From NCBI RefSeq assembly GCF_014206975.1, contig NZ_JACHOU010000001.1, forward strand, positions 620,001-684,000: 64,000 bases of DNA, read 5' to 3'. Position 1 is the first letter of the stretch; each line of letters begins with the position of its first letter. The position numbers and the translations under genes were made by a program. The notes under the pieces are model-generated. The model did no database searches, had not been told where the DNA came from, and was given only the letters and a program-made list of their open reading frames with translations. The stretch comes from Aminobacter aganoensis (lineage in GTDB: Bacteria > Pseudomonadota > Alphaproteobacteria > Rhizobiales > Rhizobiaceae). Below are positions 5,631 to 15,013 of the stretch, piece by piece.

Positions 5631-6664
<1,034 letters not shown>

Positions 6665-6668
6665 AACG

Positions 6669-6801
6669 ATGTCCCCTCACCCGACCTCCGCTGCGCTCGG
6701 TCGACCTCTCTCCAAACTGGAGCGGAGATCGCCGACGTCAGCGCGTGCCTCATCTCCCTGCCGGGGAGAAGGTCGCCCGAAGGGCTGGATGAGGGGGACA
6801 T
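6669..6801. repeat. mosaic palindromic element copy 1 (cobW-cobN intergenic)
   Basis: About 133 bp are bounded by inverted ends ATGTCCCCTCA (6669-6679) and TGAGGGGGACAT (6790-6801). It fills nearly all of the cobW-cobN gap and contains internal CG-rich arms including TCTCCCTGCCGGGGAGAAGG. It shares the CCCCTCA/TGAGGGG borders and the CTCCCCG/CGGGGAG core with the four other copies in this cluster. It resembles the intergenic mosaic elements (RIME-like) of Rhizobiales. Confidence 0.8.
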
Positions 6802-6829
6802 TTCGCGCGACCTCAAGCGAGGCGAGCTG

Positions 6830-9800
6830 ATGCACATCCTCACCACCACCTCCGCCTCGCTCGACGACCTCATCGAGCCTGTGGACCTCGGGCAGAAGCC
6901 TGCGGATGTGGTGGCGCTGTCCTTCACCGACAGCGATCTGGCAGGCCTCGCCAACGCCTGGAAGGCGGGTGCAGCAAACCTGCCGTCGATGCGGCTCGCC
7001 AGCCTGCGCGACCTCCGGCACCCGATGTCGGTCGACCTGTGGATCGACAGCGTGGCTGCCCACGCCAGGGTCATCCTCGTCCGTATCCTCGGTGGTCACG
7101 ACTGGTGGCGCTACGGCTGCGACCAGCTTGCTGCGGTGGCTCGCGAAAGAGGCATCGCGCTGGCGCTGCTGCCCGGCGAAAGCCATGACGAGGATCTCAG
7201 GCTGATCGAAGCATCGACGCTACCACGCGCCGAACTCGATGCCCTGCTCGGTTACTTCCGCGAGGGCGGCCCGGAGAACATGAAGGCGCTGGTCGCGCGG
7301 CTGGCTGGGCTGGCAGGTGACAAGAGCATCATCGTAGCACCTGTGGCGGTGCCGAAAGCGGGGTTTTATGATCCGGAGCGGGGCGTGATTGAAGCCCCCT
7401 TCTCCCCGTTCACGGGGAGAAGGTCCCGGCAGGGGGATGAGGGGCAAGCACCGACCTCTGGCAGCCTTGCGCAGCCCCTCAACCGCCCCTTCGGGGCACC
7501 TTCTCCCCGTGAACGGGGAGAAGGAAACGTCATCCCCATCCTCTTCTACCGTTCAATGCTGCTCGCCGCAGACGTCGCCCCCATCGACGCGCTGGTCGAA
7601 GCACTCAGGACCCAAGGCCTCCGCCCCGTCCCGATCTTCGTCTCCAGCCTCAAGGACAAGGCCTCCCTCGCCTTCATCGAGGCCGCGCTGACGCAACTTG
7701 CTCCGGCAGCCATCGTCACCGCCACCGCTTTCGCAGCAGGCGCCGAGCCCGGCGCGGAAACGCTGTTCGACCGCGCCGGCGTGCCGGTGTTTCAGGTCAT
7801 CGTCGCCACCACCCGCCGCGAAGCGTGGGAAGGCAGCCCGCGTGGCCTCGCGCCCGCCGACCTTGCCATGCATGTGGTGATGCCCGAGCTCGACGGCCGC
7901 ATCCTCGCCGGTGCCATCTCCTTCAAGGCCGAGAGCGAGGTCGACCCCGCGCTCGGCTTCCGCGCCTTTGCCAACCGGCCCGAACCCGACCGCGTCGACC
8001 AGGTCGCCCGCCGCATCGCCGCGCATCTCAGGCTGCGCGAGACGCGGCCCGAAAACCGCAAGCTCGTGATCCTCATCCCCGACTACCCCAGCGCCCCTGG
8101 CCGGACGGGTTATGCCGTCGGCCTCGACGTTCCGAACAGCGTGCTCGCAATGCTGCACGACCTGAAGGACGCGGGCTATGCGGTTGAAGGGATTCCGGAA
8201 TCACCGCGCGCACTGCTCGACCTGATCGAGGCAGGTGGGCATGGGCTGGCGCTGAATGACTATCTCGCGCTTTCCGCCGATCTGCCCACAGATGCAAGAA
8301 ATGCGGTTGAGGCGGCGTGGGGAGAAGCAGCGCAGGAAGCTGTAATTGCGCTTTCGCGCCGCCCCTCATCCTCTGCCGGACCATCTCCCCGTCAGGACGG
8401 GGAGATGGAAGTCCGCCGCAACGCCAGCGCCAACGAAGACAGCCTCAACGCTTACGCCCCCCTCTCCCCGACCTTACGGGGAGAGGGTAAGGGTGAGGGG
8501 CAGCTCAACCTTTGCGAGGAGCAACGCCATTTCCCCTTCCGCGCTGCAACCTTCGGCAATGTCACCGTAGCCCTCGCCCCCGACCGTGGCCGCTCTGCCG
8601 ATCGCCGCGCCGATTACCACGACCCGACGCTGCCGCCCCGCCATGCCTTGCTCGCCTTCGGCTTCTGGCTGCAGAAGTCGCTCGGCATCCATGCCATCGT
8701 CCATGTCGGCGCCCATGGCACGCTCGAATGGCTGCCCGGCAAGGCGGTGGCGCTGAGCCAAAACTGCTTCCCCGAGATCGTCACCGGCTCGCTGCCGGTG
8801 GTCTATCCCTTCATCGTCTCCAATCCCGGCGAGGCAGCCCAGGCCAAGCGCCGCATCGCGGCCGTGACGCTTGGCCACCTGCCGCCGCCGCTCGCCAGCG
8901 CCGGGCTGGATGAAAACCAGCACAAGCTCGAGCGGCTGGTCGACGAATACGCCCAGGCCGACGGCCTCGACCGCCGCCGCCGCGACCGGCTCGCGAAGCT
9001 GATCGTCGAGACGGCGTCGCAGACCGGCCTTGCCGCCGAGGCCGGCGTCGCCAACACCGACGCGCCCGACGAAGCGCTGCGCCGCATCGATTCCTGGCTC
9101 TGCGACCTCAAGGATTTCGCCATCAAGGACGGCCTGCACGTCTATGGCCGCGCCGAAGAGAACGAGCCGGACCCAGCGCGCCGCGCCAGCGCCGAGGCCG
9201 AGCGGAAAAACCTGATCGCCGCACTCGACGGCCGCCACGTCAATGCCGGTCCCTCGGGCGCCCCTGCCCGCGGTCGCACCGACGTGTTGCCCACCGGGCG
9301 CAACCTGTTCACCTCGGATCCGCGCACAATGCCGACGCCGACCGCTTTCGACCTCGGCAAGATGGCCTCCGACGAGATCATGCGCAGCTACCTGCAGAGC
9401 CACGGCGAATGGCCGCGCGCGCTGGTCATCGATCTTTGGGGCAGCGCGTCGCTGCGCACCGGCGGCGAGGAAATCGCGCAGGGCCTGGCGCTAATGGGCT
9501 GCCGGCCGCAATGGGATGCCGCGACCGGCCGCGTCACCGGCATCGAGGTGCTGCCGCCGGCAGCGCTCGGCCGCCCGCGCGTCGACGTCACCTGGCGCAT
9601 CTCCGGCCTGTTCCGCGACATGTTCCCGACCCAGATCGCGCTGGTCGATGCCGCTGCCCGTGCTGTTGCCACCCGCGACGAGGACGACCATGACAACCCG
9701 CTCGCCGCCAGCACCCGCGCCGCAGGCAAGGTCGAGCCGCGCATTTTCGGCTCCTCCCCCGGCACCTATGGCGCTGGCCTCGAAGACCTTTTGTCCAGCG

Positions 9801-10456
9801 GCGACTGGCAGGCCCGCGAAGAGCTCGGCCGCGCCTATCTCGACGCCGCCTCCCACGCCTATGGCGGCAGCGACGGCGAAGGCTTTTCCGCGCCCGGCGC
9901 ATTCGCCGGCCGCATCGCCGAGGCTGACCTTCTCGTCCACACCGGCGACGACCCCGGCCGCGACATCCTCGAAGGCTCCGCCGACGTCGCCTTCATCGGC
10001 GGCTTTTCGGCGGCGGTGGCAGCACTCGGCAAGAACGCCGACGTCATCGTGCTCGACACATCGGACCCGCAAAAGCCGCGCCCGCGTTCGGTCACCGAGG
10101 CCGTCGGCCGCGTCGTCAGGGCACGCGCCACCAACGCCCGCTTCATCGCCGGCCAGATGCGCCACGGCCCGCGCGGCGCCTCCGAATTCGCCGAGACCGT
10201 CGACCGGCTGATCGGCTTCGCCGAAACCACCAACGCCATTCCGGGCGCGCTGATCGAGGCCGTCCACGACGCCTATGTCGGTGACGAAGCCGTCCGCGAC
10301 TTCATGCTGCGCGAGAACCCGGCAGCGGCAAAGTTCATCGCCGAGCGTTTCGCCACTGCCCGCCGGCGTGGTCTGTGGCACCCGCTGCGCAATTCCATCG
10401 ACGACGATCTCGTCGCCCTCATCGCCGAGGCTGAAGCGCGTGAGGTGGCGGCATGA
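6830..10456 (+). CDS. cobN: CobN, cobaltochelatase large subunit, with two palindrome-derived insertions
   Basis: CobN is the substrate-binding subunit of the aerobic CobNST chelatase, which inserts Co into hydrogenobyrinic acid a,c-diamide using ATP. The 1208-residue frame holds the family blocks YHDPTLPPRHALLAFGFW, IVHVGAHGTLEWLPGKAVAL, PSGAPARGRTDVLPTGRN and GRPRVDVTWRISGLFRDMFP. Residues about 190-232 and 511-557 are translated from mosaic palindromes (separate entries) and look foreign: Pro/Arg/Gly-rich and flanked by conserved sequence. From memory of the Pseudomonas denitrificans protein (about 1275 residues), the variable helical section before ALDGRHV is also about 130 residues shorter. 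The start follows a GAGG box. The stop overlaps cobG. Confidence 0.95.
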   Translation: MHILTTTSASLDDLIEPVDLGQKPADVVALSFTDSDLAGLANAWKAGAANLPSMRLASLRDLRHPMSVDLWIDSVAAHARVILVRILGGHDWWRYGCDQLAAVARERGIALALLPGESHDEDLRLIEASTLPRAELDALLGYFREGGPENMKALVARLAGLAGDKSIIVAPVAVPKAGFYDPERGVIEAPFSPFTGRRSRQGDEGQAPTSGSLAQPLNRPFGAPSPRERGEGNVIPILFYRSMLLAADVAPIDALVEALRTQGLRPVPIFVSSLKDKASLAFIEAALTQLAPAAIVTATAFAAGAEPGAETLFDRAGVPVFQVIVATTRREAWEGSPRGLAPADLAMHVVMPELDGRILAGAISFKAESEVDPALGFRAFANRPEPDRVDQVARRIAAHLRLRETRPENRKLVILIPDYPSAPGRTGYAVGLDVPNSVLAMLHDLKDAGYAVEGIPESPRALLDLIEAGGHGLALNDYLALSADLPTDARNAVEAAWGEAAQEAVIALSRRPSSSAGPSPRQDGEMEVRRNASANEDSLNAYAPLSPTLRGEGKGEGQLNLCEEQRHFPFRAATFGNVTVALAPDRGRSADRRADYHDPTLPPRHALLAFGFWLQKSLGIHAIVHVGAHGTLEWLPGKAVALSQNCFPEIVTGSLPVVYPFIVSNPGEAAQAKRRIAAVTLGHLPPPLASAGLDENQHKLERLVDEYAQADGLDRRRRDRLAKLIVETASQTGLAAEAGVANTDAPDEALRRIDSWLCDLKDFAIKDGLHVYGRAEENEPDPARRASAEAERKNLIAALDGRHVNAGPSGAPARGRTDVLPTGRNLFTSDPRTMPTPTAFDLGKMASDEIMRSYLQSHGEWPRALVIDLWGSASLRTGGEEIAQGLALMGCRPQWDAATGRVTGIEVLPPAALGRPRVDVTWRISGLFRDMFPTQIALVDAAARAVATRDEDDHDNPLAASTRAAGKVEPRIFGSSPGTYGAGLEDLLSSGDWQAREELGRAYLDAASHAYGGSDGEGFSAPGAFAGRIAEADLLVHTGDDPGRDILEGSADVAFIGGFSAAVAALGKNADVIVLDTSDPQKPRPRSVTEAVGRVVRARATNARFIAGQMRHGPRGASEFAETVDRLIGFAETTNAIPGALIEAVHDAYVGDEAVRDFMLRENPAAAKFIAERFATARRRGLWHPLRNSIDDDLVALIAEAEAREVAA
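7395..7530. repeat. mosaic palindromic element copy 2, inside cobN
   Basis: Two matching hairpins, each with 12-bp perfect arms (CCTTCTCCCCGT/ACGGGGAGAAGG), sit at 7398-7423 and 7499-7524. One is the reverse complement of the other (TC versus GA at the centre). Between them GATGAGGGGC and GCCCCTCAA face each other. The whole unit is read through in frame as CobN residues about 190-232, between GVIEAP and the conserved FYRSMLLAAD block. Confidence 0.85.
8360..8501. repeat. mosaic palindromic element copy 3, inside cobN
   Basis: Outer inverted ends GCCCCTCA (8360-8367) and TGAGGGGC (8494-8501) enclose two hairpins. The first is CCATCTCCCCGT/ACGGGGAGATGG (8381-8392, 8397-8408). The second is CCCTCTCCCCG/CGGGGAGAGGG (8460-8470, 8477-8487). 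The frame stays open, and residues about 511-557 of CobN are encoded by it. It precedes HFPFRAATFGNVTVALAP, which matches normal CobN. Confidence 0.85.
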
Positions 10457-11994
10457 CAGGCTTTTCCCGTCGCGGTGCCTGTCCGGCGCTATCAGCCCCG
10501 ATGCAGACCGGCGACGGCCTGCTCGTGCGGATCAATCCGCTCGTCGGAGAACTTACGCCCAACACCTTGATCGGACTCTGCGAATCCGCAGCTAGACATG
10601 GCAACGGCATCGTCGAGGTCACTGCACGCGGCAGCATCCAGATCAGAGGGCTGACGGAGGAGAGTGCCTGTTTGCTGGCCGAAGAAGTCGACACGCTGGG
10701 CATCGCGGTGCGCAGCGGTGTGCCCGTCGACACGAGCCCGCTCGCTGGCATCGATCCCGAGGAAGTCGTTGATCCCGCGCCTCTCGCCGCAGCGATCCGC
10801 ACAGGCATTGAGGCTGCCGGCCTCGCTTCGCGGCTCGGGCCAAAAGTGTCCGTTGTCGTTGATGGATGTGGCCAGATCAGGCTCGGCGCCATCATGGGCG
10901 ATGTCAGGCTTGTCGCAGCGGATGCAGAACGCTGGCGCCTGTCGGTGGCTGGCGATGAGACCTCGACGCGTTTGGTCGGCGAGTTCGATGCGGATGCCGC
11001 CTGCCGCGCCACGCTCGACATGCTTCACGCAATTGCGGCGCTGGGTCGGCAAGGCCGCGCCCGTGACCTCAAACCGGAGGCCTTGCGCGCCGCCATAGCA
11101 GGATTTGAAGCCTCTCGTTCCTTCGCACCCCCCTCTGTCCTGCCGGACATCTCCCCCGCAAGGGGGGAGATTGGCAGCTCCGCTGGTAGCGCTCATCTTA
11201 AAGCGCTGCGGATGGGCGGAGACGGCGATGGCAGCCTGATCTCCCCCCTTGCGGGGGAGATGTCCGGCAGGACAGAGGGGGGTGGGAAGGATCGCGACCT
11301 AAACGATCAGCCATCGCCAAAAGCAGCTGATTCAAATCATGAGCACTCCGCCGCAACCGATTCATCTCCCATCGGAATCTTCCCGCTAACCGGCGCCCGA
11401 ATCGCCCTCGGCATCGCGCTACCCTTCGGCAGCGTCGACGCCCCAACCCTGACCAAATTCAGCCAGGCAGCGAAAGCCGCCGGCGCCACCGGCATCCGCC
11501 CAGCACCCGGCCGAACCCTGCTCGTCATGGGCCTCGACCGCACCGCCGCCGCCACCCTAACCTCCACCGCCCAATCCCTCCGATTCGTCACCTCGCCCGC
11601 CGACCCGCGCATCCGCATCGCCGCCTGCCCCGGCGCGCCGGCTTGCGCATCGGGCATAATCGCCGCGCGTGACGTCGCCTCGAATATCGCAACCAAAATC
11701 GGCGATGACCTCGACCCAACGCTTTCGCTCCACGTCTCCGGCTGCGCCAAGGGCTGCGCCCATCCGGGGCCTGCCGCGCTCACCATCGTCGGTGACGAAA
11801 AAGGTGCGGCATTTGTCGTCGGCGGAACGGCAAAGGGCCTTCCGGCATCCTACACCGCAGGATATGAAGCCGCGCGCGGCATGGGCCGCCTCATGAAATT
11901 GCTCGCCCAGGAGCGCAAGCCGGACGAAAATGCCGCCGCTTGCCTCGCAAGGCTGGGCGCAAAGCGCCTCGCGCAAGCACTGGCACAGGAATGA
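10453..11994 (+). CDS. cobG: CobG, precorrin-3B synthase (oxygen-dependent), with in-frame palindrome insertion
   Basis: CobG is the monooxygenase that prepares ring contraction in the aerobic B12 pathway. It is related to sulfite/nitrite reductases and carries a [4Fe-4S] cluster. The 513-residue product has the two ferredoxin-like half domains. The cluster-binding Cys motifs lie in the C-terminal half: CPGAPACASG near residue 395 and CAKGCAHPG near 433. Residues about 225-277 come from a palindromic element with perfect 45-bp arms. Without them the length is about 460, the usual size. Its ATG overlaps the cobN stop and its TGA overlaps the cobH region. The insertion lies at the boundary between the two halves, which may explain why it is tolerated. 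Confidence 0.93.
   Translation: MTGFSRRGACPALSAPMQTGDGLLVRINPLVGELTPNTLIGLCESAARHGNGIVEVTARGSIQIRGLTEESACLLAEEVDTLGIAVRSGVPVDTSPLAGIDPEEVVDPAPLAAAIRTGIEAAGLASRLGPKVSVVVDGCGQIRLGAIMGDVRLVAADAERWRLSVAGDETSTRLVGEFDADAACRATLDMLHAIAALGRQGRARDLKPEALRAAIAGFEASRSFAPPSVLPDISPARGEIGSSAGSAHLKALRMGGDGDGSLISPLAGEMSGRTEGGGKDRDLNDQPSPKAADSNHEHSAATDSSPIGIFPLTGARIALGIALPFGSVDAPTLTKFSQAAKAAGATGIRPAPGRTLLVMGLDRTAAATLTSTAQSLRFVTSPADPRIRIAACPGAPACASGIIAARDVASNIATKIGDDLDPTLSLHVSGCAKGCAHPGPAALTIVGDEKGAAFVVGGTAKGLPASYTAGYEAARGMGRLMKLLAQERKPDENAAACLARLGAKRLAQALAQE
11127..11283. repeat. mosaic palindromic element copy 4, inside cobG, perfect 45-bp inverted repeat
   Basis: Positions 11127-11171 and 11239-11283 are exact reverse complements (45 bp each), separated by 67 bp. 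Each arm itself contains the CTCCCCC..GGGGGAG hairpin typical of the family. The element is translated in frame within cobG (residues about 225-277). In RNA the arms could pair into a very stable long stem. Confidence 0.92.
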
Positions 11995-11996
11995 AC

Positions 11997-12629
11997 ATGG
12001 CCGCCTACGACTACATCCATGATGGCACGGCCATCTACGAACGCTCCTTCGCCATCATCCGCGCTGAGGCCGACCTCACGCGCTTCTCGGAAAACGAGGC
12101 CGACGTGGCGGTGCGCATGATCCATGCCTGCGGCCTGGTCGAGGCCGCCGAGCATTTCGTCTTCTCGGAAAACTTCGTCTCCGCCGCGCGTGGCGCGCTG
12201 CAGGTCGGCGCACCAATTTTCTGCGACGCAGAGATGGTGTCGCGCGGCGTCACCCGGGCCCGCCTGCCCGCCAATAACGAGGTGCTTTGCACCCTGCGCG
12301 ACCCGCGCACGGCAGACATCGCCAAGGAGATCGGCAACACGCGCTCGGCCGCAGCAATCGACCTCTGGATGGACAAGATCGCCGGCTCCGTCGTCGCCAT
12401 CGGAAATGCGCCGACAGCCCTGTTCTACCTGCTCGAGAAGCTGCGCGACGGCGCGCCAAAACCTGCCGCCATCATCGGCATGCCGGTCGGTTTCGTTGGC
12501 GCTGCCGAATCCAAGGACGCGCTGGCCGAGAATTCCTACGGCGTGCCCTATGCCATCGTCCGTGGCCGCCTCGGCGGCAGCGCCATGACTGCGGCTGCGC
12601 TCAACTCGCTGGCGAGGCCCGGCGTATGA
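11997..12629 (+). CDS. cobH: CobH, precorrin-8X methylmutase
   Basis: CobH moves the C11 methyl group to C12, forming hydrogenobyrinic acid. The ATG at 11997 gives 210 residues, identical to the usual length, and places the catalytic histidine exactly at His43 (RMIHACGLVEA). An AGGA box at 11987-11990 is 6 nt upstream of this ATG. The other ATG at 11991 directly abuts that box and is less likely. The block GNAPTALFYLLEKL and the C-terminal GRLGGSAMTAAALNSLARPG are family hallmarks. Its TGA overlaps the cobI ATG. Confidence 0.96.
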   Translation: MAAYDYIHDGTAIYERSFAIIRAEADLTRFSENEADVAVRMIHACGLVEAAEHFVFSENFVSAARGALQVGAPIFCDAEMVSRGVTRARLPANNEVLCTLRDPRTADIAKEIGNTRSAAAIDLWMDKIAGSVVAIGNAPTALFYLLEKLRDGAPKPAAIIGMPVGFVGAAESKDALAENSYGVPYAIVRGRLGGSAMTAAALNSLARPGV

Positions 12630-14900: not shown

Positions 14901-15013
14901 GCCCCTCACCCTTACCCTCTCCCCGTAATGACGGGGAGAGGGAGTCGTCAACCTGGCCGCTTCTCCCTTCTCCCCGCCTGCGGGGAGAAGGTGCCGGCAG
15001 GCGGATGAGGGGC
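14901..15013. repeat. mosaic palindromic element copy 5 (cobK-cobL intergenic)
   Basis: The element is bounded by GCCCCTCA (14901-14908) and TGAGGGGC (15006-15013). It contains hairpins CCCTCTCCCCGT/ACGGGGAGAGGG and CCTTCTCCCCGC/GCGGGGAGAAGG. It ends 8 bp before the cobL ATG and begins 33 bp before the cobK start. It therefore occupies the space where the divergent promoters and the cobL ribosome-binding site would lie. Confidence 0.85.

Follow-up and report, generated by a model that had tools for sequence, protein, structure and literature searches.

How does a long palindrome come to lie inside an open protein-coding gene, and what happens to it once it is there? The question is raised by the 64,000-nucleotide stretch of Aminobacter aganoensis DNA analyzed here (the window), in which cobG, the gene for precorrin-3B synthase (10453 to 11994, + strand; a 513-residue open reading frame), hosts an inverted repeat in its reading frame. 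From comparisons among related sequences we consider it probable that this is an old in-frame palindromic insert, in which template switching or gene conversion has homogenized the arms and has both inverted and exchanged the loop.

The palindrome lies in a predicted linker of CobG

The element begins with a 45-nt left arm (11127 to 11171, + strand), which reads APPSVLPDISPARGEI, continues through a loop of 67 nt, or 1 mod 3 (11172 to 11238, + strand), which orientation scoring places in the forward class, and ends with a 45-nt right arm (11239 to 11283, + strand), which reads ISPLAGEMSGRTEGG. As the earlier note on this DNA had reported, the two arms are exact reverse complements of each other and the cobG frame stays open through them. 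The end of the left arm and the start of the right arm are 23-nt units, the left one hairpin forming (11149 to 11171 and 11239 to 11261, + strand). One further outward base pair also matches (11126/11284), and a looser outer extension gives arms of 59 nt that are 95% complementary (11113 to 11171 and 11239 to 11297, + strand), so that the whole inverted repeat spans 11113 to 11297. Folded as RNA, the element reaches -162 kcal/mol, compared with a mean of -86.1 for shuffled sequences (z -15.3), and none of 200 shuffles was as stable, a result that excludes a chance origin of the palindrome.

The open reading frame is identified as CobG by TIGR02435, at 354.8 bits against a cut-off of 234.8. The Pfam domains PF03460 and PF01077 both fall in the N-terminal half of the protein, and the C-terminal half takes nine of the ten sequence matches among solved structures, which are nitrite and sulfite reductases. 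In the structure predicted for CobG (pTM 0.75; 29 aligned sequences) both halves are modeled with mostly good confidence, and between them lies a stretch with pLDDT below 50 (residues 220 to 303) that holds the insert, arms and loop together making up residues 225 to 277. By this model the insert sits in a disordered linker joining two reductase-like halves of CobG; an insertion between such halves had been proposed from the sequence alone, and both the domain matches and the predicted structure agree with it. The accompanying claim that removing the arms restores the usual length of CobG did not hold in that form, since 157 bp is not a multiple of 3 and excising exactly this segment would break the frame. 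The comparison with insert-free relatives within the genus (G004 and G005) gives the actual difference: their CobG is 434 residues long, and the linker between the same motifs measures 60 nt versus 297 nt in the window, or 79 codons fewer.

The insertion is shared across genera

A set of 85 CobG genes was compared, made up of 80 named loci and seven genomes minus two duplicates (L052 and L130). Both arms and a loop are found at the same linker and in the same frame in 65 of the 85, a share that is biased upward because the named genes were the best 80 of 218 matches to a query that itself bears the insert. The arms stand in identical codon phase in all 65 carriers. In another four genes (L089, L108, L109, and L128) one of the arms is altered or masked, and the remaining 16 are not intact, consisting of ten collapsed remnants, one single hairpin (L121), one different repeat (L118), and four genes without any insert (L125, L127, G004, and G005). 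Within the genus Aminobacter, eight of ten genomes carry the insert, always at the same place and in the same frame, as do most of the Mesorhizobium CobG genes in this set, which was ranked by similarity to the query.

Aligning related cobG genes, a check that the earlier note had put forward, turned up empty sites in G004 and G005, within the carrying group. On a quick tree of 84 genes (linker removed and L127 left out), these empty Aminobacter sites nest inside the carriers and the element changes between intact and not intact 11 times, a picture drawn from a tree that carries long-branch warnings and leaves 21 of its 81 inner branches open. Over 185 nt, the window's element is 91% identical to the cobG element of G002, 88% to that of G003, and 84% to that of G007; the best other copy in its own genome, among those listed, is 84% identical over 157 nt and ties with G007. 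The simplest reading of these sequences would be one old insertion, placed most simply before the split between Mesorhizobium and Aminobacter, followed by repeated in-frame collapse.

The perfect arms in the window had first been taken as a sign of recent insertion, yet arms that are perfect over 46 nt occur in 20 of the 65 cobG copies, and we now give a recent event almost no credence. Site and frame are common to the genera, while flanks and loops have diverged, and it is the empty sites inside the carrying group, together with the site that both genera have in common, that date the insertion as not recent. The opposite expectation, that close relatives would all share the insertion as an ancient conserved protein sequence, was half right: relatives do share an old insertion, yet its loop shows no conservation at the protein level. 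Insertion may alternatively have occurred more than once at a permissive linker, a reading that draws on the presence of other repeats in the CobG linker, as in L118. Inspection by eye places a GC-rich inverted repeat of different sequence in the linker of L118 (at about 640 to 800 of its cobG) and, from the translation, another repeat-like insert in the same linker of L034; the two suggest that the site is permissive.

The collapsed elements of L106, L110, L112, and L116 lack a loop and form perfect or near-perfect palindromes. L110 and L112 have an identical junction although they sit apart on the tree, which suggests recurrent deletion. An identical block of non-arm bases replaces part of the right arm in L108 and L109, with the frame kept.

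The element belongs to a dispersed, mostly intergenic family

Searching the window's own genome with the element returned 59 pieces when E up to 10 was allowed and, at E up to 4e-4, about 22 places when merged by eye, the window's included; no further copy of the family was found elsewhere in the 64-kb window. Each of eight Mesorhizobium genomes contains 76 to 86 pieces, on both strands, at E up to 1e-6, and 40 of the 103 to 188 candidate places per genome were scored in that search. The element belongs to a palindromic repeat that is dispersed through the Aminobacter genome, and the suspicion that such a family had contributed a copy in frame is thereby supported. We take the family to be RIME-like, a likeness by description and not to the published RIME1/RIME2 consensus.

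Of 96 dispersed loci that were fetched (L002 to L018 and L131 to L209), 86 have two arms and a loop; L016 is the same element as L002 and is counted twice in the Aminobacter dispersed rows for orientation, arms, and loops. Coding context was judged from 450-nt flanks for 83 dispersed copies, with three loci, L016 among them, omitted as too short, by a test that 60 of 66 cobG copies passed as a control; a stricter first version, whose own control was passed by 1 of 66, was discarded. The flanks were open in the same frame through the element in 11 copies and in the same frame with a stop in 12; in 32 they were coding on the same strand in another frame, in 15 on opposite strands, in 12 on one side, and in 1 on neither. 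Four of the 11 are clearly intragenic, two in cobG (L160 and L171) and two, by eye, in cobN (L164 and L209), and in the others the element stands close to where the open frame begins and perhaps precedes the actual start of the gene. Taken together, the family is mostly intergenic. A preference for in-frame insertion was considered and is not supported, the sampled copies being mostly intergenic.

In a check for the target-site duplication typical of a MITE, one filled and empty pair of sites, L139/L210, fits a 4-bp TCGC repeat flanking the element in the filled site, and this was the sole informative pair, as the second (L140/L211) aligned poorly. Membership in a known RNA family was also considered and rejected: five Rfam matches (E up to 1, positions 6500 to 12500) all fell below the gathering score, and the two at the element, both microRNA hairpin models, were taken as chance matches to a hairpin.

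Arms stay matched and their silent sites are frozen

Across 600 random pairs drawn from the 65 genes, identity at fourfold-degenerate sites is 0.929 in the arms versus 0.612 in the flanking domains, and the two arms of a cobG copy match at a mean of 44.1 of 46 positions. The base pair at the arm tip is A-T in 28 copies, T-A in 21, G-C in 10, and non-Watson-Crick in 6 (n = 65), and in the protein these pairs appear, by eye, as the linked residues T/V, S/E, and A/A. The 59 paired tip states change 22 times on the tree, compared with a mean of 25.2 for shuffled states. Arm homogenization, a reported outcome of template switching, is evident here in the paired tip states and the high complementarity.

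Unbiased arm-to-arm correction alone does not obviously account for the conservation of arms between species. One possibility is that the hairpin is kept by selection on the cobG mRNA or DNA, through RNase III processing, attenuation, or protein binding, which would suit both the extremely stable stem and the frozen silent sites. Such selection nevertheless strikes us as unlikely when the intact form is absent from 16 of 85 CobG genes and has changed state 11 times on the 84-gene tree. In addition, the dispersed, mostly intergenic copies have nearly the same arm consensus as the cobG copies, which makes conservation of the arms a property of the family and not of cobG.

The loop keeps the frame while its sequence varies

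Loop length is 1 mod 3 in all 65 cobG copies, across nine lengths (67 nt in 39 genes, 85 in 18, 94 in 2, and 64, 76, 82, 88, 91, and 118 nt once each), and none of the 65 loops contains a stop codon. Among dispersed Mesorhizobium copies, 7 of 67 loops are 1 mod 3; the Fisher p of 4e-30 for this difference is overstated, as the rows are related and two genomes share orthologous copies, and the search with 67-nt-loop queries favored copies of similar length. Twelve disjoint pairs with loop identity above 0.8 in one orientation allowed codon positions to be compared. Their loops differ at positions 1, 2, and 3 in 36/282, 29/282, and 32/294 cases (0.128, 0.103, and 0.109), versus 542/4910, 315/4910, and 1352/4910 in the flanking domains (0.110, 0.064, and 0.275). 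With all loops at 1 mod 3 and no codon-position bias, the frame alone looks selected in the loop, and the predicted loop peptide looks tolerated, not used.

When loops were reversed computationally, 49 of the 65 alleles stayed open. Shuffled loops did so in 58% of cases on average, and segments of equal length from other parts of cobG in 85%; reversing the loop of the window's copy introduced one stop codon. A two-way switch kept by selection is not supported by this test.

Probable inversion and exchange of the loop

Two classes of cobG loop can be told apart, one being the reverse complement of the other, with 35 copies in the forward and 30 in the reverse orientation (n = 65; the labels are unsure for the weakest rows, L129, L054, G009, L107, and L055). 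Orientation changes 23 times on the tree, compared with a mean of 21.8 for shuffled labels; as far as this tree can tell, orientations are so mixed that phylogenetic signal is gone. Eleven pairs of equal-length loops, five of them involving L063, are at least 82% identical only when one member is reversed, and 45 to 58% identical as they stand. The loops of L076 and L100 are 94% identical after reversal, and those of L071/L105 and L063/L091 are each 92.5% identical, with all three pairs at 52 to 58% unreversed. L063 is M. ciceri WSM1271, a complete genome, and L091 is M. ciceri WSM4083; L100 and L105 are MAGs. Inversion of the spacer at the same site is therefore seen in cobG. Clean flips are not the commonest outcome: among gene pairs at a tree distance of 0.12 to 0.18 there are 4 flips, 2 unchanged loops, and 5 loops replaced or diverged, and at 0.18 to 0.24 the figures are 6, 9, and 28, so that replacement or divergence past recognition is commoner.

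It could be argued that loop orientation is an artifact of assembly, in that a 67-nt loop flanked by 45-nt inverted repeats is beyond what short-read assemblers can orient; drafts and MAGs make up most of the records, and arm length can, we reason, exceed assembly k-mers. Several observations make this very improbable. For 16 of the 65 alleles just one orientation keeps the frame open, and every one of them is recorded in that orientation (1.5e-5 for random orientation). Records titled as complete show both orientations (L063 forward and L098 reverse), and the arms match at 42 of 46 positions in L063, 44 in L091, 45 in L071, and 44 in L105, mismatches by which the arms of these elements are not symmetrical.

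A more serious rival is that loops have been replaced by ectopic gene conversion from other copies of the family and not inverted in place, since the arms are mirror images and a converted loop can enter either way round. Dispersed sites in two sister genomes bear on this question. Matching by flanks gave 23 pairs, of which L134/L176 (a one-sided match whose partner was also paired with L169) and L164/L209 (a one-sided match at different cobN sites) were dropped, leaving 21 sites; L170/L197 was retained despite a one-sided flank match, and L161/L183 differed in class between two scorings. At 10 of the 21 orthologous sites the loops are the same, and at 11 they are no more alike than those of unrelated copies and are mixed in orientation: reversal makes 7 of these more similar but not the other 4. 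No reversed case among the 7 stands clearly above 0.818, the 99th percentile of unrelated pairs (the best reach 0.82 and 0.79), so we claim in-place flips for cobG only. Replacement by ectopic conversion is also consistent with the sister genes L073 and L092 (distance 0.095), whose 85- and 67-nt loops are 0.60 alike at best.

What such replacement explains less well is the similarity of the best reversed cobG loops, which at 92.5 to 94% exceeds the maximum of 0.864 among non-orthologous dispersed copies (1219 pairs) and of 0.806 among distant cobG pairs (1601 pairs). Nearer donors for L063/L091, L063/L070, and L071/L105 did not appear among the 40 places scored per genome, from about 90 to 190 candidates, a sample in which a nearer donor copy could be missed. 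With places matched to cobG by locus coordinates, the best scored match of the L063 element in the L091 and L070 genomes is in each case their own cobG element, at 93% and reversed relative to the gene, and the next copies are at 85% or less. The cobG elements of L071 (M. mediterraneum) and L105 are likewise mutual best scored matches, reversed, at 94 to 95%, with the next at 83 to 89%. Finally, an outer-arm variant with T-A on both arms is present in 63 of 65 cobG copies versus 21 of 62 dispersed Mesorhizobium copies, and its retention in cobG indicates that whole elements are not freely replaced. Ectopic replacement in place of inversion is, in our judgment, a real possibility but one short of likely. 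Given the 11 of 21 unlike dispersed loops and the many cobG pairs with replaced or diverged loops, loop exchange is common, and where present it seems to reach no further than the inner hairpins and the loop; conversion of these parts only is a possible alternative as well. Gene conversion had been offered, beside recent insertion, as a source of the perfect arms, and that part of the earlier reading remains plausible and is strengthened by the loop inversions in cobG.

A proposed history and its relation to known systems

We propose that a copy of an ancestral dispersed repeat entered the inter-domain linker of CobG in reading frame. Its arms would then have been homogenized by polymerase template switching or gene conversion, and its spacer loop inverted and exchanged by template switching or conversion. 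Template switching of the kind described in yeast is what we infer for cobG; its main rival is conversion, whether between arms or from copy to copy, and both processes may be at work. Cells would survive these events because the segment lies in a disordered linker, and selection would remove products that are out of frame or contain stops. A bolder version, in which the element is an active invertible coding cassette that inverts within populations, perhaps with an enzyme that recognizes the arms, so that one strain would make CobG (and CobN where it carries the element) with alternative linker peptides and the family would form a self-maintaining inversion system across the genome, is in our view a long shot.

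Parts of this history have precedents. Rickettsia palindromic elements (RPEs) are described as palindromic repeats of about 150 bp that lie in frame in unrelated genes (PMC10969869), and a likeness to them, raised when the insert was first noticed, stands up: set beside them by description, the family is dispersed and palindromic and has copies in frame in genes (cobG, and cobN in L164 and L209), in cobG within the linker. Unlike RPEs, which are said to lose the identity of their repeats with time (PMC6649704), the cobG element has kept its arms matched over the time that separates genera, and its loop inverts; the copies of the family that were sampled, moreover, are mostly intergenic. Rhizobial palindromic repeats (RIME and the A, B, and C motifs) are dispersed and described as intergenic (PMC2573895). 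The family resembles RIME, again by description, in its many dispersed palindromic copies in a Rhizobiales genome, whereas the window's copy lies inside cobG.

Template switching between the arms of inverted repeats has been described in yeast genes, with arm homogenization and spacer inversion as outcomes, and the same source describes proteobacterial noncoding regions with short inverted repeats as more conserved than their surroundings (PMC8604942). Both outcomes are found in coding DNA in cobG as in yeast. The yeast cases described there involve short repeats, up to five neighboring residues, and strains of one species, whereas the cobG arms are about 46 nt with loops of 64 to 118 nt, belong to a bacterial repeat element, and recur across species and genera. 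Template switching is also reported to create and maintain RNA hairpins (PMC8794818). Correia elements, which like the cobG element are invertible bacterial inverted repeats, have been reported to invert in Neisseria gonorrhoeae (Elbeyioglu 2017, cited in PMC10969869), and that citing article discusses them for their promoters and their influence on neighboring genes and not for any coding loop. For Nematomorpha mitochondria, long inverted repeats that are actively maintained within protein-coding genes are described, in an account whose text has no word beginning "inversion" (PMC6649704); unlike the cobG element, these palindromes lie in animal mitochondria and are not a dispersed bacterial element. 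Palindrome-associated inversions are known in chloroplast DNA (PMC2903610). Arm homogenization and spacer inversion are thus already known for inverted repeats, and the bacterial coding case is apparently unreported: the open literature searched, in which older work is incompletely covered, held no report of an inverting palindromic loop in a bacterial protein-coding gene, which is weak evidence of absence.

The cobG element can be regarded as a long-running natural experiment on the effects of inverted repeats in coding DNA. Linked residue changes (A/A, T/V, and S/E) and reversals of a segment look like DNA mechanics, not protein selection, and suggest that such mechanics, not selection, shape part of a working protein. 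This extends protein-coding palindromes to a Rhizobiales repeat family, in contrast to the reportedly decaying elements of Rickettsia. It also carries a warning that DNA pairing can cause covariation in protein alignments, and it makes hairpin-driven loop inversion testable in a harmless bacterium of the soil.

Palindromes of other kinds occur nearby. The window's cobN holds two in-frame palindromic inserts of other repeat sequence, at 7398 to 7524 (residues 190 to 232) and at 8370 to 8498 (residues 514 to 557), and in the Mesorhizobium loci L209 and L164 the cobG-element family stands in frame at what seem, by eye, to be the same two cobN sites. More copies of the repeat units found in the cobN inserts lie at 14904 to 15004 of the window.
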